A stretch of DNA of 35,156 nucleotides, taken from positions 1 through 35,156 of the forward strand of contig JANWJG010000014.1 of the NCBI GenBank assembly GCA_025449485.1, written 5' to 3'. Positions 2,684 through 24,175 of this stretch are shown one piece after another. Both the position numbers and the translations under genes were made by a program. Every line of letters begins with the position of its first letter. Positions within the stretch are counted from its first letter, which is position 1. The notes under the pieces are model-generated. The model did not search any database. It saw nothing but the letters and a program-made list of their open reading frames with translations, and had not been told where the DNA came from. The DNA comes from Nitrosotalea sp. (GTDB lineage: Archaea; Thermoproteota; Nitrososphaeria; Nitrososphaerales; Nitrosopumilaceae).

Positions 2684-3247
2684 CTAATCTTGATATCGCA
2701 TCAGTTTTTTTTCTTCAAGCAATGTATGCAAATTGTGAACTGATCTATGTACTTCGGATTCTTTTCGCGCTCCTACACATACAAGTTTTCCAGAAACAAA
2801 AATCAAGGTCACAGTTTTTGGGTCAATCATCCTGTGTATGACACCGGGAAATTGCTCTGGCTCATACATGCTTCTTGGGAGGCTTCTTGCAGCCATTGAC
2901 AAGTGAACTCCTCCACCAAGGTCTACTGATGCAACTATGTTTTGAATCGTTATTACAGCATCATTTTTTATCTTTATCTTGGCCTTGCGGAGTTGTTGTA
3001 TCACTGTCTGTATTGCACTAATTGCAGTTTCTTCAGATTTTGAACCTGTGCAAACAAATTTGCCTGAACTAAATATGAGAGTCGCAGTTCTTGGCGATTT
3101 CAATCTAAATACCAGACCTGGAAATTGTGCTGGATTGTATTCTGCTTCTGGAAATGCCTTTGTTATTTCTACAAGATCAATTTTTTGATCAACTGATGCA
3201 GAAGCAACCACATTAACTATTTGTACAATTGGTTTTGTCTGTGGCAT
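2684..3247 (-). CDS. tbp: TATA-box-binding protein (TBP)
   Basis: An archaeal general transcription factor of 187 residues from this start. Two direct repeats of the saddle fold are visible: IVNVVASASVDQKIDL..FPGLVFRLKSPRTATLIFSSGKFVCTGSKS and IVASVDLGGGVHL..FPGVIHRMIDPKTVTLIFVSGKLVCVGA. The paired FPG(L/V) and LIF.SGK..C.G elements are diagnostic and include the DNA-intercalating phenylalanine positions. I chose the internal ATG at 3247 (MPQTKP) over the track's ATG at 3271 because the upstream one sits inside an ATATATAT TATA box about 25 bases before 3247, and family members usually begin MPQTKP. It ends convergent with the peptidase gene, 38 bases apart. Confidence 0.95.
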   Translation of the reverse strand: MPQTKPIVQIVNVVASASVDQKIDLVEITKAFPEAEYNPAQFPGLVFRLKSPRTATLIFSSGKFVCTGSKSEETAISAIQTVIQQLRKAKIKIKNDAVITIQNIVASVDLGGGVHLSMAARSLPRSMYEPEQFPGVIHRMIDPKTVTLIFVSGKLVCVGARKESEVHRSVHNLHTLLEEKKLMRYQD

Positions 3248-3267
3248 CCCCTGAATGCAATGTTGTA

Positions 3268-3279
3268 TCATATATATCC
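3268..3279 (-). promoter_or_regulatory. TATA box of tbp
   Basis: On the minus strand the run GGATATATATGA lies about 25 bases before the ATG at 3247. This is the spacing expected for a leaderless archaeal transcript, and it decides the tbp start. Confidence 0.6.
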
Positions 3280-3400
3280 AGAATGTGGAATATGTAATGT
3301 ACTAATATTATACCAAACAAGAAAAATTTTTTATTTTTACTTGCATAATGTACAAAACTATTTTGGTAGATTACGAATTATATGTAATTGAAAAATTTAA

Positions 3401-4502: not shown

Positions 4503-5240
4503 CTAGTGGCAGATTGGGCTTCCATGACAAGAACGATCTGTACCAGCTGTAGCAAATCCTGATACATTAGCTCCAGTAAGATCTGCACCTGCTAAAATAG
4601 TATATGATCCATCAGCAGAATCAAGGTTTGCACCGGATAGATTAGCACCTGTTAGATCTGAAGTGCGCATGTTTACATTTGATAGATCAGCCTTTGAAAA
4701 GTTAGCACCTGCAAAGCTTACTTGTATTGCTCGTACCCATGAAAGGTTGGCTCCTGACAAATCAGCATTTTGAAAATTTGCTATTCCAAATGAAGAGCCT
4801 GCAAGGTTGGCACCTTGTAGATCTGCTCTTGCCAGATTAGCACGGTAAAAATCCATGTTTTGTGCATTAATTCCATTTAGTTTTGCACCTGCCAGATTGA
4901 CATTGTTTAGACTGGCACCTGTGATTTGTGCTCCAACAAGATTTGCACCTGAAAGATTGGTGCCATACAAATTTGCACCCTGCAGGTTTGCACCTGCCAG
5001 ATTGATTCCAGTCAAGTTAAGAAATTCTAAACTGGCACCATGTAAATCGCAATTAGACCAATCTGTATTTGCCGATGGTTTACCAGAACATGATTTTGTT
5101 TGTGTCATGCTAGAATGTGTATAGCTTGAATCTGCATATGCTGCAAGTGTTGATACTGGATTGCTTGACATCATAGTAAATAACAAAACTGATACTGCGC
5201 CAATCCACAGCAATGAGACATTTTTCTTATTTGTTTGCAA
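4503..5240 (-). CDS. Secreted pentapeptide-repeat protein
   Basis: A 245-residue protein. A cleavable signal peptide is likely at residues 1-37 (basic MQTNKKN, hydrophobic LLWIGAVSVLLFTMM, small residues ..TLAAYADSS). From about residue 63 to 232 there are more than 30 A(N/D)LxG-type pentapeptides such as LAGANLQGANLYGTNLSGANL, which fold into a right-handed quadrilateral beta-helix. Cys51 and Cys64 near the N-terminus and two cysteines in the last 13 residues could cap the helix by disulfides. The exported location distinguishes it from gyrase-protecting, cytosolic pentapeptide proteins; a surface or binding role is more likely. The start is leaderless, with TTTTATAC about 27 bases upstream, and is preceded by a tandem 33-base-spaced DNA element. 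Confidence 0.88.
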   Translation of the reverse strand: MQTNKKNVSLLWIGAVSVLLFTMMSSNPVSTLAAYADSSYTHSSMTQTKSCSGKPSANTDWSNCDLHGASLEFLNLTGINLAGANLQGANLYGTNLSGANLVGAQITGASLNNVNLAGAKLNGINAQNMDFYRANLARADLQGANLAGSSFGIANFQNADLSGANLSWVRAIQVSFAGANFSKADLSNVNMRTSDLTGANLSGANLDSADGSYTILAGADLTGANVSGFATAGTDRSCHGSPICH

Positions 5241-5287: not shown

Positions 5288-5330
5288 CGTAAACTACAAA
5301 ATCAGTCTCACAAAGTTATACGTAAACTGC
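5288..5330 (-). promoter_or_regulatory. Tandem direct-repeat element upstream of the pentapeptide gene
   Basis: Read on the minus strand: GCAGTTTACG (5330-5321) then GTAGTTTACG (5297-5288), start points exactly 33 bases apart. The proximal copy ends about 20 bases upstream of the presumed TATA centre (near 5268), the position of archaeal activator sites. The same paired arrangement occurs before two other genes in this window (16506-16548 and 23216-23258). Confidence 0.55.
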
Positions 5331-16163: not shown

Positions 16164-16457
16164 TTAGTTTGATAAGACAGCAAGATTAGGAATCGTTTGT
16201 TTGCCTAATCCCGTCTTTAAGAGAAGTCTAAAGGTTAACAAAATATCTAACTTTGTTATGTTTGGCATGTCTGTTACTCCTCCATCATGTTTTAGGTCAT
16301 TTATGTAATCAAATATTTCGTCTACTGTTACAGGTTCATCTGCCAATCCTAATTCACCGTTTACTGCATTGTAGGTTGCAATATGATAACTCAAGAATGA
16401 CGTTTTGCTCAGGATTTCTTCAGTGTTTGTACCAAATCCAAGACTGACTCTTTCCAT
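16164..16457 (-). CDS. Conserved-looking small protein of unknown function (97 aa)
   Basis: An acidic, probably helical protein with no recognised motif; it contains SFLSYHIATYNAVNGELG and TVDEIFDYINDLKHDGGVTDMPN. The ORF track starts at a TTG (16478). I prefer the ATG at 16457 because the distances from the upstream tandem element (about 49 bases) and the CCTTAAATC box (about 30 bases) match those of the pentapeptide gene, whose start is clear. Function is unknown. It is convergent with the module-repeat protein (39 bases). Confidence 0.5.
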   Translation of the reverse strand: MERVSLGFGTNTEEILSKTSFLSYHIATYNAVNGELGLADEPVTVDEIFDYINDLKHDGGVTDMPNITKLDILLTFRLLLKTGLGKQTIPNLAVLSN

Positions 16458-16505
16458 AGTTTTTACTAGATCTTTCAAAAATGATTTAAGGTTTAGGGTA
16501 AAAAA

Positions 16506-16548
16506 TGTAAACTACTGATTCACAGAGAAAAAATGATGCGTAATCTAC
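16506..16548 (-). promoter_or_regulatory. Tandem direct-repeat element upstream of the 97-aa gene
   Basis: On the minus strand: GTAGATTACG (16548-16539) and GTAGTTTACA (16515-16506), exactly 33 bases apart. The proximal copy ends about 19 bases before the TATA-like CCTTAAATC. The proximal copy and its flank (GTAGTTTACATTTTTTAC) nearly repeat the sequence in front of the NiCoT gene (GTAGTTTACGATTTTTTAC). Confidence 0.55.
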
Positions 16549-16649: not shown

Positions 16650-17399
16650 GTGAAGATCAAAAATATTCCCCTCAAGCTCATAGACATTGCAGATGAAAAT
16701 GTTCGAAAAGATCATCCTTTTGGCGAAGACTCTAGAGACCAATTAATTAAAGATCATTTATCCAAGTTCGAATTATTACAGCCAGTAGTTGTCCGATTTG
16801 ATAATACAAGCAAGAGATACAAGCTGCTCATAGGTCGCAGGAGATTTTTGTCACTAAGTGCAAAAGGAACAAGAGAGATACCGGCAGTGATAACAGAACT
16901 CGAGGGTGCAGAAGCAGAGGCAGCTTCTTTGTTTGAGAATTTAATTCGTAAAGATCTGCCACCAATTGAAAAAGCAAAAATGGTAAGAAAGTTAGTTGAC
17001 TCAACTCAATCAGGTATTACAGGTGTATCGAAAAAATATGGATTGTCTAAAAGTACAGTAAGTGAGTGGCTAAGCGTTTTGACATTAGCAGAACCATTGC
17101 AACAAGCATTAGAGAGTGGAGAAATAACACTTTACGAAGCAATACAGATTGCAAGAAAACCAAAAGCGCTACAAGAAAAATTGGTTAATGCAGTATCCGA
17201 AGGAAAACTTCAAGAAGTAATGATAAAAACCGGAGTAAAGCGCGGAGCGCCAAAAGGTCTTTTGACTATTCGTCTTGTTTTCAATCCAAAGAAAAAATTT
17301 GATAAAAAAATGTGGGATCAATTAAATGATCAAGCCTCTCAAAATGGATTAGAGGTTACAGATTATGTTAAAAATATACTCACAAAGCGTCTTAACTAG
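16650..17399 (+). CDS. Orphan ParB/Spo0J-like DNA-binding protein
   Basis: A 249-residue protein from a GTG start. The N-terminal ParB-type domain has LLQPVVVRFD and the box GRRRF (62-66), then ENLIRKDLPPIEKA (96-109), the conserved ParB arginine-rich and linker motifs. A helix-turn-helix follows (GITGVSKKYGLSKSTVSEWLS, about 122-142). Box II in CTP-hydrolysing ParB is usually G(E/x)RR; GRRR here leaves nucleotide use open. The C-terminal region ends in LEVTDYVKNILTKRLN, perhaps a dimerisation helix. There is no parA next to it, so a role in transcription or nucleoid organisation is as likely as segregation. A perfect GTTCGACAATCGAAC palindrome begins on its stop codon. Confidence 0.85.
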   Translation: MKIKNIPLKLIDIADENVRKDHPFGEDSRDQLIKDHLSKFELLQPVVVRFDNTSKRYKLLIGRRRFLSLSAKGTREIPAVITELEGAEAEAASLFENLIRKDLPPIEKAKMVRKLVDSTQSGITGVSKKYGLSKSTVSEWLSVLTLAEPLQQALESGEITLYEAIQIARKPKALQEKLVNAVSEGKLQEVMIKTGVKRGAPKGLLTIRLVFNPKKKFDKKMWDQLNDQASQNGLEVTDYVKNILTKRLN

Positions 17400-17955: not shown

Positions 17956-19545
17956 CTACACAGGTCCTTTTTTATTTGTGTTAGAAATTTGTCTTACGTC
18001 TATAGGATTAGTCCATTCCTCAACACTAGCACCGCTAACCACATCTGCATCACTTGGAATAAGATAAACCACATCGTGTCTCGATGGTGTTCTTTTTTGT
18101 GTTGCTAGGCTGACTAGTATGAAGACTGCTAATGATATGAGTGGAGGAATCATTGTATCAAGTCCGCCATATTGGTAATAGGGACTATCAGATGGAGCTA
18201 TAGTTATGACAAAGAATAAGATTAGTCGTGTGATAGAACCTACTACAATTGATGCAATAGCACCAGATGCTGTTGATTTTTTCCAAAAGGTTCCAAAAAC
18301 TAGAGGAACAAGACATCCTGCTAAAACAATATCAAATGCCAAGACAAGATATGCGCCTGGTCTTGGAATGAGATAACCTAATGCAAAGGCGGTAAAGAAC
18401 ATGGGGATCACAAAGAGTCTTGTTGCAACAAGTAATTGTCGATCAGTCAGCTTTGGTCTCTTGAGTAATTTTGCTATAATATTTCGTTGCAACATGTTTC
18501 TAGATAGCACACTTGCTATAGCTAATGTACCACCATTGGCAGTAGACATACCACAACTGACTGTACTTACTAGCATCAGTATGCCAATTACTGCAGGTAC
18601 GTGTTTTATTGCAATGATTGGGTACAAAGTATAAGGATCCGCAAGCTTTGGCTCTAATGTAAATCCAATAATTCCTACCATGGTTACAGGTATTAGGATC
18701 AGGAGAGTTATTCCAGCACCCATGTAACAGCTTTTTGTTGCGGTACGGCCTCCATCTGCCGCAAATACTCTTTCCATAAAGTCTAACGCTACAATATCTC
18801 CTAATCCTAGTGATATTATTGCAGCCCAGTTTAACATAGCTCCACTACCTACATTGAGTAAGCCTGACATATCCATGAATCCGGCAGGCGCATTTGCTAC
18901 TATAGTGTCCAATCCACCAGGAATTGGAGACCATGGCCCTATGAAAAATAAAAAGCCCGCCCAAAATCCTACCACAGCTAAATAGATGTGGAAGATGTCT
19001 GTGTATGCACAAGAGAACAGTCCTCCAAAATACGTATACAGTAGAACAACTGCAGTTGAAATCAACATTGCATAAATTAACGGTATTCCTAAAACTACTG
19101 ATAAAATATAGCCACTTGCTGCGAGGTTACCGGCAACAAGAACTATGAAACTGACTGCCATGACAGTTCCTGACATTACTTCAGTAGTGTTTCCATATCG
19201 TCTATAGTAGAAATCTGCAAGTGTAATCATGTTCATACGGTTAAACCGTTTTCCAAAAAATAATCCAGTCAACACAAGACAAATAGCTAAACCCATGGGA
19301 ATGACAGCGCCTCCCCAAAAACCACCTGTGAATGTTAACGCGACATTTCCAAGAGATGCATTGCCATCAACTGCTTCTGACACAAGCATTGTGCCGATGA
19401 AGAAAAGCGGTAAACTTTTTCCAGCAACAATATATCGTTTACTACTTTTCTTGACAAATTTTACTGCGATAACCCCAATGAATGCGGTTACACCAACGAA
19501 TGCCATAACGATGATTGGATAATAAAGTGGAATTGCATCAACCAT
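17956..19545 (-). CDS. Sodium:solute symporter family protein, possible urea transporter (DUR3-like)
   Basis: A 529-residue membrane protein with about 13 hydrophobic segments and an N-terminal FVKKSSKRYIVAGKSLPLF, the usual SSS loop after helix 1. The region NGGTLAIASVLSRNM in the middle resembles the conserved SSS helix-8 segment that shapes the sodium site. The C-terminal tail is hydrophilic. Homologues in urease-bearing ammonia-oxidising archaea are commonly taken as urea carriers; position 3 kb from ureC supports this but proline, acetate or other substrates are not excluded. TTATTAATATATAG is the TATA region and a GTTCGA-type palindrome lies about 50 bases before the ATG. Confidence 0.8.
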   Translation of the reverse strand: MVDAIPLYYPIIVMAFVGVTAFIGVIAVKFVKKSSKRYIVAGKSLPLFFIGTMLVSEAVDGNASLGNVALTFTGGFWGGAVIPMGLAICLVLTGLFFGKRFNRMNMITLADFYYRRYGNTTEVMSGTVMAVSFIVLVAGNLAASGYILSVVLGIPLIYAMLISTAVVLLYTYFGGLFSCAYTDIFHIYLAVVGFWAGFLFFIGPWSPIPGGLDTIVANAPAGFMDMSGLLNVGSGAMLNWAAIISLGLGDIVALDFMERVFAADGGRTATKSCYMGAGITLLILIPVTMVGIIGFTLEPKLADPYTLYPIIAIKHVPAVIGILMLVSTVSCGMSTANGGTLAIASVLSRNMLQRNIIAKLLKRPKLTDRQLLVATRLFVIPMFFTAFALGYLIPRPGAYLVLAFDIVLAGCLVPLVFGTFWKKSTASGAIASIVVGSITRLILFFVITIAPSDSPYYQYGGLDTMIPPLISLAVFILVSLATQKRTPSRHDVVYLIPSDADVVSGASVEEWTNPIDVRQISNTNKKGPV

Positions 19546-19596: not shown

Positions 19597-19611
19597 TTTC
19601 GACAGTCGAAC
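19597..19611. promoter_or_regulatory. Palindrome copy 3 (TTTCGA-CAG-TCGAAC)
   Basis: One mismatch from the perfect palindrome. It is about 52 bases upstream of the symporter ATG and about 20 bases beyond its AT-rich TATA region; on the other side it is 140 bases before the C2H2 gene. An activator or repressor site for the symporter-usp operon is the simplest reading. Confidence 0.5.
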
Positions 19612-20798: not shown

Positions 20799-20808
20799 GT
20801 AGATTACG
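20799..20808 (+). promoter_or_regulatory. Single GTAGATTACG element
   Basis: A copy of the 10-base element about 120 bases upstream of the ureohydrolase gene. A second, weaker copy GTAGATTACT is at 20873-20882, about 11 bases upstream of the AAATTTAAG box. The spacing (74 bases) differs from the 33-base pairs elsewhere, so the link is uncertain. Confidence 0.35.
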
Positions 20809-20845: not shown

Positions 20846-20860
20846 GTTCGACTGTAGAAC
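20846..20860. promoter_or_regulatory. Palindrome copy 4 (GTTCGA-CTG-TAGAAC)
   Basis: One mismatch from the palindrome. It is 58 bases upstream of the ureohydrolase start and directly followed by ATATTTAAAAAC, a TATA-like stretch. It would place the ureohydrolase gene under the same regulator as the symporter operon. Confidence 0.5.
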
Positions 20861-20918
20861 ATATTTAAAAACGTAGATTACTTAGACAAATTTAAGTAGA
20901 TACTAATACAATACTAAA

Positions 20919-22043
20919 GTGATTAATATGGGTGCAGAATTTTATGGAGAATCATACCGGGGCAATGACGAACCAATTTTTGTGGGCATTCCTACGTTCT
21001 TGAAATTGCCTTTGCTTAAAAATAAGGCAGAACTGGAAAAAGTGCGTCCAGATGTTGCCATAATAGGTGAACCTTTTGATTTTGGGACAACTATTAGACC
21101 AGGTGCCAGATATGGACCTAGAGCTATAAGAGCAGCTTCAACAGTACCATCTCCTCCGTACGAGCACTTCAACATTGAAACAGGTGTTGATCCATTTGGA
21201 GTTTTTAAAACAGTTGATTATGGAGATGTGAATATTGTACCAGGCGATGTGGTAGAATCCCACAGAAGAATGACTGACAAGGTTAAAGAAGTGTTAGATA
21301 TTGACGGCATTCCTGTCATGCTTGGTGGTGATCATTCCATCACTTTTGCAAATGTACGAGCCTTTGCAAAGAAATACAAGAACATAGGAATGATTCACAT
21401 TGATACGCATGCTGACTGTGCACCACAGGGTTTGTGTGGTTTCAAGTATGATCATGGGGCTCACATTAGAAGAATAATGGAATTAGGATGTCTAAAAGGA
21501 AAGAATTACACCCTAATTGGACCTCGTGGATACTGGCCAGGTCCAGATCTATACAAGTGGATGGCAGATCAAGACTTTCAATGGTTCACTATGCTTGATG
21601 TAGAAGAGTTAGGCATAGATAGAATTGCCAAAGAGGCAGCAGACAGAGCTAATGACAATGTCGATGCAGTGTACATTAGTTGGGACATTGATACATTTGA
21701 CCCAGCATATGCTCCAGGAACTGGAGAGCCAGAACCAAACGGACTCACCTCCAGAGAAGGAATGAGACTGATGAGATTACTTTCATCCTCGTTTGATCCC
21801 GACAAGTTTGCTTTTGACTTGGTCGAAGTAGCCCCCAACTATGATGTCAGTGATGGTAATTCGTATAGTGGCGGAATCACTTCAGGTCTTGCAAACCGCT
21901 TGATAGTAGAGCTCTTAGCAGGACTATCACTCACAAAGAAAGGAGAGACTGAAGGTAGACCAGTAAGACCAAAATCTTATCGTGGTACAGGGAACACATA
22001 CAGCTTTGGTAAACCTAAAGCCCAGATTCCGAAAAGGAATTGA
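20919..22043 (+). CDS. Arginase-family ureohydrolase (agmatinase-like; guanidine- or guanidino-acid hydrolase possible)
   Basis: A 374-residue enzyme that should release urea from a guanidino compound. The binuclear metal ligands are complete: His139 (GGDHS), Asp162-His164-Asp166 (HIDTHAD), Asp256 and Asp258 (SWDIDTFDP). RPGARYGPRAIR is the family's N-terminal motif. It is about 70 residues longer than usual agmatinases, with ~45 extra residues in front (FVGIPTFLKLP) and a polar tail, as in guanidinobutyrase and nickel-dependent guanidine-hydrolase branches. Agmatine is a reasonable substrate because the window encodes arginine decarboxylase, but guanidine is possible. Its stop overlaps a urease-gamma-like gene, and NikR and NiCoT follow. 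GTG 20919 lies 26 bases after AAATTTAAG; ATG 20928 is the alternative start. Confidence 0.88.
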   Translation: MINMGAEFYGESYRGNDEPIFVGIPTFLKLPLLKNKAELEKVRPDVAIIGEPFDFGTTIRPGARYGPRAIRAASTVPSPPYEHFNIETGVDPFGVFKTVDYGDVNIVPGDVVESHRRMTDKVKEVLDIDGIPVMLGGDHSITFANVRAFAKKYKNIGMIHIDTHADCAPQGLCGFKYDHGAHIRRIMELGCLKGKNYTLIGPRGYWPGPDLYKWMADQDFQWFTMLDVEELGIDRIAKEAADRANDNVDAVYISWDIDTFDPAYAPGTGEPEPNGLTSREGMRLMRLLSSSFDPDKFAFDLVEVAPNYDVSDGNSYSGGITSGLANRLIVELLAGLSLTKKGETEGRPVRPKSYRGTGNTYSFGKPKAQIPKRN

Positions 22044-22462
22044 TTAGAATCGAGGTCTTGATAGAGGGAGAGCCAGACATTCTTCCCTCTATCAAACTCT
22101 TTGAATTCAAAGATGAGGATGAGGCAATTTTTCTCAATGTCATAGAAATGGTCAAAGACAAACTCTCAAGAAATTTGAGGCTAAACACTCATGAAACTCT
22201 ACATGTATTTTGTGCATATGTTGTTAGTGAAATTCGTTCAGGAAAATCAGAATCGCAAATCATAGATAACTCATCAAAAATTTTAACAAGAGACAATGTT
22301 TTGTTCGGGGTACCAGAAACCTTAAGACAAATTACGTTCAATATTACCGTAGATAATTTGCCAAAAAAGATAATCCAATTTATTGAACCAATTCCAACTA
22401 TGAATTACGTAATGGCAGATCCCAGAGCAGTTGTGGTAACCAATTGTGAGAAACAGAAATAA
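22040..22462 (+). CDS. Urease-gamma-like (UreA paralogue) protein coupled to the ureohydrolase
   Basis: A 140-residue protein starting at a TTG inside TTGA, a four-base overlap with the ureohydrolase stop. Residues from about 44 to 115 align by eye with UreA: LRLNTHETLHVFCAYVVSEI against [40 protein letters not shown] against [27 protein letters not shown] against VLPGVPE, then FIEPI against VHDPI. The first helix is poorly conserved and there are extra N-terminal (IRIEVLIEGEPDILP) and C-terminal (MADPRAVVVTNC) pieces. The true ureA is intact 9 kb upstream, so this is a specialised paralogue. A partner or regulator of the ureohydrolase, or a linker between it and urease, is inferred. Confidence 0.75.
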   Translation: MIRIEVLIEGEPDILPSIKLFEFKDEDEAIFLNVIEMVKDKLSRNLRLNTHETLHVFCAYVVSEIRSGKSESQIIDNSSKILTRDNVLFGVPETLRQITFNITVDNLPKKIIQFIEPIPTMNYVMADPRAVVVTNCEKQK

Positions 22463-22762: not shown

Positions 22763-23206
22763 ATGAAGAAAAAACAAAGATCATCTCATGATGACGAGAG
22801 AAATGTCATGAGAATAAGTATGTCCTTATCAGCCAAACTTTTGGCTGAATTTGATCGTGCGATGAAAAAAGCAGGATATTCTGATAGATCAAAGGCAATA
22901 CAGACTGCCCTGCATTCATTTGTAGATGAATATGGATGGAAGGGAAATGATAATCATGAAGGGGCAGGTGCAATAGTTTTGTTGTATGACAATCATACGT
23001 ATAACCATGACTCTGAATCTACAGAATCGCAGCATGACTATACCGACATTATCAGTGCTGTAACGCATACCCATCTTGATCATGAAAATTGTCTGGAAAC
23101 AATAATGGTCAAGGGAGAAATAGGAAGGATAAAAGAACTGGCTAGAAAAATTTCAAAGAATCGTGGAATCAAAAGTTTGAAGATCAATTTCGTAACTATG
23201 GTCTAG
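22763..23206 (+). CDS. nikR: Nickel-responsive transcriptional regulator NikR
   Basis: A 147-residue regulator with an N-terminal ribbon-helix-helix (MRISMSLSAKLLAEFDRAMKKAGYSDRSKAIQTAL) and a C-terminal ACT-like nickel domain. The four high-affinity ligands keep the exact family spacing: His91, His102, His104 and Cys110 (THTHLDHENCLE), equivalent to His76, His87, His89 and Cys95 of the E. coli protein. Two features differ: a 14-residue basic/polar N-terminal arm and a short insertion DNHTYNHDSESTESQ before the first ligand with two extra histidines. Nickel-bound NikR would repress nickel uptake genes; the nickel permease is the next gene, transcribed in the same direction. Confidence 0.95.
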   Translation: MKKKQRSSHDDERNVMRISMSLSAKLLAEFDRAMKKAGYSDRSKAIQTALHSFVDEYGWKGNDNHEGAGAIVLLYDNHTYNHDSESTESQHDYTDIISAVTHTHLDHENCLETIMVKGEIGRIKELARKISKNRGIKSLKINFVTMV

Positions 23207-23215
23207 AATATTTTT

Positions 23216-23258
23216 GCACTTTACGTATGGCATTTTAGAAGCAGTTTGGTAGTTTACG
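23216..23258 (+). promoter_or_regulatory. Tandem direct-repeat element upstream of the nickel permease
   Basis: GCACTTTACG (23216-23225) and GTAGTTTACG (23249-23258), exactly 33 bases apart. The proximal copy ends about 19 bases before the centre of ATATTTTTATAG (23271-23282), the likely TATA box. The arrangement matches the elements at 5288-5330 and 16506-16548. Confidence 0.55.
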
Positions 23259-23365: not shown

Positions 23366-24175
23366 ATGGCAGACGCCTGGTCTTTTATCTTGGTGTCAAT
23401 ACCTGTGATGATACTGTTTGGAATACGTCATGGATTAGACGTTGATCATATTACTGCAATTGATAATCTTGTTAGGTTACACAATGCCACAAAAAAATCA
23501 AGACTAGTAGGGGCGGGATTCAGTTCTGGCCACATGATGTCCGTTCTTGCCGAAATGATTTTCATCATATATGTAGTTGGCAGCATTACTAGCACAGGCA
23601 ACCTACAGTTTTGGGGAGGCATCACAGGTGCAATAGCACTAGGTACAATTGGTGCAGTCAACATCTATGCAATGAAAAAATGGGGCAAGAGCGGTTCTGC
23701 AATACTTGCAAGCAAGGTACTCAACAGAGTTGGAATACTTGGTCCAGTAGGCTCTTCTTTTGTAACAGGCATGGTATTTGGCCTGGGCTTTGATACTGCG
23801 ACACAAATTTCTGCAATTACAATATCTGCAGTGGCATCAGCTACTACAGGAATCCAGACAGCACTGATTCTCTCAGGATTCTTTGCACTTGGCATGATCC
23901 CAGTGGATACACTAGACAGTGTCATGATACGCTCTGCATTCTCTAGAATATTTGACACCAAGGGTTTCCGGTACATGACATATGGATTGAGTGGAGTTGC
24001 ACTCTTTGTTGCCGCATTTGAATCATATTCAACAATAACTGGTAACAACATACTTTCACCGTTAGCAGGTCCAGTCTTGGCAGGTTCCATACTTGCGATA
24101 TCATTTGGATATGCATTTGCAACAAGAAAGAAAAAATTGCAGCGTCATACTGAAAGCTCTAAAGAAAAACTCTAG
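23366..24175 (+). CDS. NiCoT-family nickel/cobalt permease
   Basis: A 269-residue, seven- to eight-helix permease. The helix-II signature RHGLDVDHITAIDN (residues 22-35), with the H-x4-DH that selects nickel or cobalt, is intact; LGFDTATQI is the second conserved family motif and SGHMMSV the third. The gene has a strong Shine-Dalgarno AAGGAGG about 9 bases before the ATG and, from the predicted TATA box, a leader of roughly 60 bases, unlike the leaderless genes around it. Position after nikR and near urease points to nickel as substrate. Its stop overlaps the convergent coaBC stop by four bases (CTAG). Confidence 0.93.
   Translation: MADAWSFILVSIPVMILFGIRHGLDVDHITAIDNLVRLHNATKKSRLVGAGFSSGHMMSVLAEMIFIIYVVGSITSTGNLQFWGGITGAIALGTIGAVNIYAMKKWGKSGSAILASKVLNRVGILGPVGSSFVTGMVFGLGFDTATQISAITISAVASATTGIQTALILSGFFALGMIPVDTLDSVMIRSAFSRIFDTKGFRYMTYGLSGVALFVAAFESYSTITGNNILSPLAGPVLAGSILAISFGYAFATRKKKLQRHTESSKEKL

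Follow-up and report, generated by a model that had tools for sequence, protein, structure and literature searches.

Palindrome pairs upstream of urea-utilisation genes in ammonia-oxidising archaea and a predicted ribbon-helix-helix protein as their candidate regulator

Ammonia-oxidising archaea (AOA) rank among the major nitrifiers of oceans and soils, and urea can sustain many of them. The window analysed here, a stretch of 35,156 nucleotides from Nitrosotalea sp., comes from an ammonia-oxidising archaeon, with Thaumarchaeota, Nitrosopumilales, and Nitrososphaera assemblies as its closest named relatives, and carries urease operons, a sodium:solute symporter, a ureohydrolase, a urease-gamma-like gene, NikR, and a nickel permease; genome comparison showed that relatives carry the same urea cluster. 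The best PDB matches of the ureohydrolase are 3nio (a guanidinobutyrase), 7esr, and 9fek. Its gene is overlapped by the urease-gamma-like gene (window 22040-22462), which in other genera is followed by a metal permease that reads from its sequence as UreH/HupE-like (L068, L200, L202); the overlap and the permease together suggest a nickel-dependent ureohydrolase operon. Pairs of a 10-base element, GYASWTTACR, precede three genes of the window, those for the nickel permease, a pentapeptide-repeat protein, and a 97-residue protein (Table 1). A sequence-only reading had described these pairs, and its coordinates and letters proved correct at all three promoters, as did the start-to-start spacing of 33 bases, the common orientation relative to the gene, and the distance of about 19 bases from the proximal copy to the centre of a TATA-like box, each of which is the same in 3 of 3 pairs. 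The same reading had called the three genes unlinked, which does not hold, because all of them lie within one 20-kb urea-utilisation cluster.

Table 1. Positions of paired sites, putative target genes, and regulators considered (window numbering).
Feature	Position	Strand	Remark
TATA-binding protein (TBP) gene, possible target	2684..3271	-	Pfam PF00352; site pair upstream
Palindrome GTACATTAC (GTAATGTAC on +), TBP-gene promoter	3294..3302	-	
Distal palindrome GTAGATTAC, TBP-gene promoter	3366..3374	+	
Pentapeptide-repeat protein, putative target gene	4503..5240	-	Pfam PF00805
Proximal copy GTAGTTTACG, pentapeptide-gene promoter	5288..5297	-	from sequence
Distal copy GCAGTTTACG, pentapeptide-gene promoter	5321..5330	-	from sequence
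Candidate regulator, 173 residues	15603..16124	+	predicted tandem ribbon-helix-helix plus C-terminal helical hairpin
97-99-residue protein, putative target gene	16164..16463	-	no Pfam or NCBIfam match
Proximal copy GTAGTTTACA, 97-residue-gene promoter	16506..16515	-	from sequence
Distal copy GTAGATTACG, 97-residue-gene promoter	16539..16548	-	from sequence
ParB-like protein	16650..17399	+	rejected as general regulator
Sodium:solute symporter, probable urea transporter	17956..19545	-	Pfam PF00474
Distal palindrome GTAGATTAC, ureohydrolase promoter	20799..20807	+	74 bases from proximal
Proximal palindrome GTAGATTAC, ureohydrolase promoter	20873..20881	+	near-fixed position relative to start codon in relatives
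Ureohydrolase, agmatinase/guanidinase family, putative target gene	20919..22043	+	Pfam PF00491
NikR	22763..23206	+	rejected as general regulator
Distal copy GCACTTTACG, nickel-permease promoter	23216..23225	+	from sequence
Proximal copy GTAGTTTACG, nickel-permease promoter	23249..23258	+	about 19 bases 5' of TATA-like centre
NicO-type nickel permease, putative target gene	23366..24175	+	Pfam PF03824

Scanning the organism's own assembly (1.49 Mb, 110 contigs, 85% complete) for GYASWTTACR-N23-GYASWTTACR returned three matches, which are the window pairs, and none for the reversed control. Chance would supply about 0.001 pairs per own genome and 3e-5 per window, against the three seen, and shuffling the window 30 times under a first-order Markov model produced no strict pair, in keeping with the earlier judgement that the shared spacing is hard to get by accident. 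When three mismatches were permitted, matches in the own genome fell below the control count, so the exact form alone is conspicuous. Across 151 family genomes the strict pattern, with 22-24 bases permitted between the copies, gave 19 matches in 11 genomes, and the intervening length was 23 in all 19. The pair is conserved at orthologous promoters: it is present before the 97-residue gene in 10 of 10 aligned genomes and before the nickel permease in G005, G057, G066, G128, and G058b (and in G133 with a spacing of 32), the pentapeptide-gene pair recurs in G058, and pairs precede one or other of the latter two genes in several relatives. Spacings of 31-34 bases recur across many AOA genera at the promoters of the 97-residue gene, the nickel permease, and, in other genera, the urea transporter, so the strict 33-base rule stands approximately at these promoters and fails elsewhere, where the copies are 41-43, 62-64, 71-75, 82, or 94 bases apart. 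In the window itself, no pair was found at the urea-transporter promoter or at the ureE/ureA promoter. Taken together, the genome comparisons support the earlier view of a regulatory element upstream of TATA that did not arise by chance and is probably bound as a pair on one face of the helix.

Comparison across genera also refined the element itself. Its invariant core is the palindrome GTA-N3-TAC, and the flanks widen the consensus to about AnACGTAnWnTACGTnT, in which the six core letters were fixed through site selection and the flanks were free of it. The description as a direct repeat is therefore right in that two copies lie in the same orientation, but it understates the symmetry, since each copy is itself nearly palindromic. 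Perfect GTA-N3-TAC palindromes formed 115 pairs at 12-110 bases in 64 loci, versus 2-42 pairs (mean about 11) for each of eleven control palindromes in the same loci; these loci were mostly picked via a 173-residue protein (see below), and the enrichment thus gauges the element and not its link to a regulator.

Where the sites lie relative to the gene was also informative. The proximal palindrome of the ureohydrolase promoter is present in 23 of 23 listed genomes having the 173-residue protein, and in nearly all genomes with this protein it begins 53-57 bases upstream of the start codon (47 in G036); a second palindrome usually stands another 63-74 bases away on the upstream side. Two sites precede the TBP gene, 72 bases apart in the window and 72-75 in L063, L107, L112, and L113, and this general transcription factor may therefore fall within the regulon. 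Similar sites lie upstream of a chaperonin gene of Nitrosocosmicus. At the transporter, ureohydrolase, and chaperonin promoters the proximal site mostly precedes the start codon by 45-50 bases, and the sites hold a near-constant place upstream of BRE/TATA, as expected of an archaeal upstream activator. Spacings favour a period of about 10.1-10.3 bases (R 0.59, p about 1e-4; 26 distinct gene-spacing combinations, kinship ignored), which suggests helical phasing of the sites; a test of the helical period on cluster centres was not significant (p 0.78). Given that result and the variable spacing at the TPR/ureohydrolase promoters, we dropped the rule that every spacing is a whole number of helical turns. 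At these divergent promoters the spacing varies freely between 61 and 75 bases because each gene owns a site.

The sites co-occur with the gene for the 173-residue protein, which was found in 32 of the 151 genomes; every one of these belongs to the set of 62 with urease (p 8e-16, kinship ignored). A broad form of the pair pattern was present in 25 of the 32 genomes with the protein versus 20 of the 119 without it (p 1e-10, kinship ignored) and, among urease genomes alone, in 25 of 32 versus 8 of 30 (p 1e-4, kinship again ignored); all 11 genomes with the strict pattern encode the protein. Some genomes without the protein point the same way. G052 keeps the transporter, the ureohydrolase, the urease-gamma-like gene, and an 84-residue gene, and both the 173-residue protein and the promoter sites are absent; G033, G015, and G049 keep the ureohydrolase and lack both the protein and the sites at its promoter. 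The 84-residue gene, the TPR gene, and the urease-gamma-like gene were rejected as determinants of the sites because G052 has homologues of all three and no sites. The place of the 173-residue gene is occupied in G052 by a small gene (L169:3400-4080) that the inverted repeat GATTTTGTGAAAACTAG flanks and that may be a mobile insertion.

No Pfam or NCBIfam family matched the 173-residue protein, even at lax thresholds, its profile found nothing meaningful among PDB chain sequences, and no relatives turned up in the viral contigs searched. An AlphaFold2 model built from a 57-sequence alignment (mean pLDDT 89) took the place of a single-sequence fold (pLDDT 51). The model shows the strand and two helices, in paired units, of the ribbon-helix-helix fold (unit 1, strand 6-11 and helices 13-26 and 32-44; unit 2, strand 64-69 and helices 70-91 and 96-116), followed by a predicted C-terminal hairpin of helices 123-144 and 149-172. 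Its nearest solved folds are all weak matches (Z below 8), and Foldseek alone gave no significant match (best E 0.085). The top match was to F-plasmid relaxosome chains (PDB 9f0x and 9f0y, whose ribbon-helix-helix chains we take to be TraY) with Z up to 6.4 over 102 residues; unlike the candidate, these serve bacterial plasmid transfer, they share 12% identity with it, and they have no urea link. AvtR followed at Z 5.3 over 76 residues and permuted single-chain Arc at 4.1. AvtR, from Acidianus filamentous virus 6 (PDB 4hv0), binds DNA as a monomer and both activates and represses (PMC5569661). Like the candidate, it is archaeal, has two ribbon-helix-helix repeats in a single chain, and uses several sites; however, it is viral, at 11.9 kDa it has no space for a helical hairpin, and its consensus, ATnnTnnTAnnACnTT, differs from GTA-N3-TAC; the likeness is one of aligned structures. 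Strand residues K12, T67, and R69 of the candidate are invariant in the 57 sequences and T8 and G10 nearly so, a pattern that fits sequence-specific DNA binding. The invariant positions include neither His nor Cys, which gives no hint of a nickel sensor.

We consider it probable that the pairs serve as operator for a local regulon of urea, ureohydrolase, and nickel genes in AOA and that the 173-residue protein, with its predicted ribbon-helix-helix fold, is what most likely binds them. Another protein encoded elsewhere, for example of archaeal HTH or Lrp type, could own the operator while the 173-residue protein merely accompanies the urea cluster. Genetic linkage of protein and cluster would make co-occurrence expected without any function, and there are genomes that have sites and lack the protein: G013 (97% complete, 330 contigs) is a counter-example, with sites at the transporter and ureohydrolase promoters and no match to the protein, and G020 and G055, likewise fragmented assemblies, have the ureohydrolase sites. 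We nevertheless judge such a binder unlikely, since the pair pattern tracks the protein within urease genomes, the four genomes described above retain targets with neither protein nor sites, and the predicted fold is of a DNA-binding type.

The two other regulators encoded in the cluster fare worse. NikR is itself a ribbon-helix-helix protein, its gene stands immediately before the nickel permease, and the permease is among the targets; on this reading NikR would bind the pair and repress nickel-uptake and nickel-enzyme genes at sufficient nickel. The sequence-only reading had raised this link through the permease, and the phyletic distribution of NikR does not match: a strong match to the window NikR occurs in this genome (G000) alone, NikR sits at the permease in no other family genome, a generic NikR turns up in 133 of 151 genomes regardless of whether pairs are present, and the incomplete assemblies of G053 (73%) and G130 (77%) contain pairs but gave no match to NikR. 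Thus NikR does not occur wherever the operator does, as the regulator of its own regulon should, and some pair-bearing genes have no known nickel link. The candidate system resembles NikR in its ribbon-helix-helix fold, its two half-sites, and the nickel and urease link known for NikR in bacteria, but the 173-residue protein did not match the nickel-binding NikR_C domain. The half-sites of Escherichia coli NikR are GTATGA-N16-TCATAC, unlike the window element in sequence and spacing. Nor do the pairs form a long inverted repeat with unlike half-sites of the NikR type, as every copy forms a short palindrome by itself; by the same token, the earlier argument from a lack of palindromic symmetry falls away. 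For these reasons we think control of the pairs by NikR very improbable. We give even less credence to binding by the ParB-like protein, whose gene adjoins the 97-residue gene divergently: although the protein is 90-98% identical wherever it is found in the family, the gene occurs in 10 of 151 genomes from two genera, and pairs are present in many others, so that the site is often found where the gene is not.

If the 173-residue protein is the binder, one protein unit would occupy each 9-10 base palindrome in the major groove, and a pair of units separated by roughly three helical turns would share one side of the DNA close to BRE/TATA; the second unit would sit farther off at the promoters of the ureohydrolase and TBP genes. 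We infer two molecules on a single face of the DNA, adjacent to the TATA box. A chain carrying two ribbon-helix-helix repeats would constitute one dimer-like reading head, the C-terminal helical hairpin could link two chains, and the proximal unit would help TBP/TFB to bind and thereby activate transcription. The proximal site is placed immediately 5' of TATA, and its distance from the start codon is nearly fixed, which makes activation appear more likely than repression. Whatever the protein, the pairs could be a repressor operator from which spreading over BRE/TATA blocks TBP/TFB, as proposed for SvtR; this alternative concerns the direction of control alone. Ribbon-helix-helix proteins are mostly repressors, and their upstream sites can seed spreading into the promoter (PMC5569661); moreover, the proximal site of the ureohydrolase promoter is about 8 bases from a TATA-like box. 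On the other hand, the main site consistently precedes TATA rather than overlapping it, and AvtR, the nearest archaeal single-chain example, also activates (PMC5569661). We regard repression as a possible but doubtful mode of control.

A wider proposal, which we put forward tentatively, is that the 173-residue protein represents a hitherto undescribed family of activators, encoded by cells and built as single-chain tandem ribbon-helix-helix proteins, that is limited to urease-bearing AOA and would control the use of urea and guanidine-type substrates, nickel supply, and the TBP gene via helically phased palindrome pairs. The literature searched contained no description of a regulator or operator for AOA urea use. 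The accessible text of a study of copper limitation in Nitrososphaera viennensis reports promoter motifs upstream of start codons, among them a motif of upregulated genes that starts at -35 to -70, and upregulation of urease and urea transporter genes, and in that text no urea operator is described (PMC7785015). Its motifs, TTCSGSMTTTGWACYANT and RATTTAAABATAGATTTAAATAATAAS as given there, differ from the window element in sequence and in the genes they precede. If our reading is true, AOA urea use would have a defined operator, a protein that is a candidate for its regulator, and, in G052, a case of natural loss; together these would give a first testable control point for switching on urea use and open the choice between urea and ammonia to assay. 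As a single-chain ribbon-helix-helix regulator encoded by a cell, the protein would likewise be unusual, and it may be an activator in archaea.

Other palindromes were noticed at these promoters. A second one, TTCGACTGTCGAA, lies before the urea transporter (window 19598-19610, - strand), and a near copy, GTTCGACTGTAGAAC, lies in the ureohydrolase promoter (window 20846-20860, + strand); palindromes of the TTCGACTGTCGAA type are kept in the genus of the window and in one other, whose transporters have no GTA-N3-TAC pair. Other groups of nickel permeases have differing palindromes near BRE/TATA, namely GTTGGATAAACTGTCCAAC, TGTAATTCATTACA, and GACTRGG-N10-CCYAGTC (L052-L055 and L057-L060; L032-L034 and L037; L043-L047), so nickel uptake has seemingly been rewired several times.
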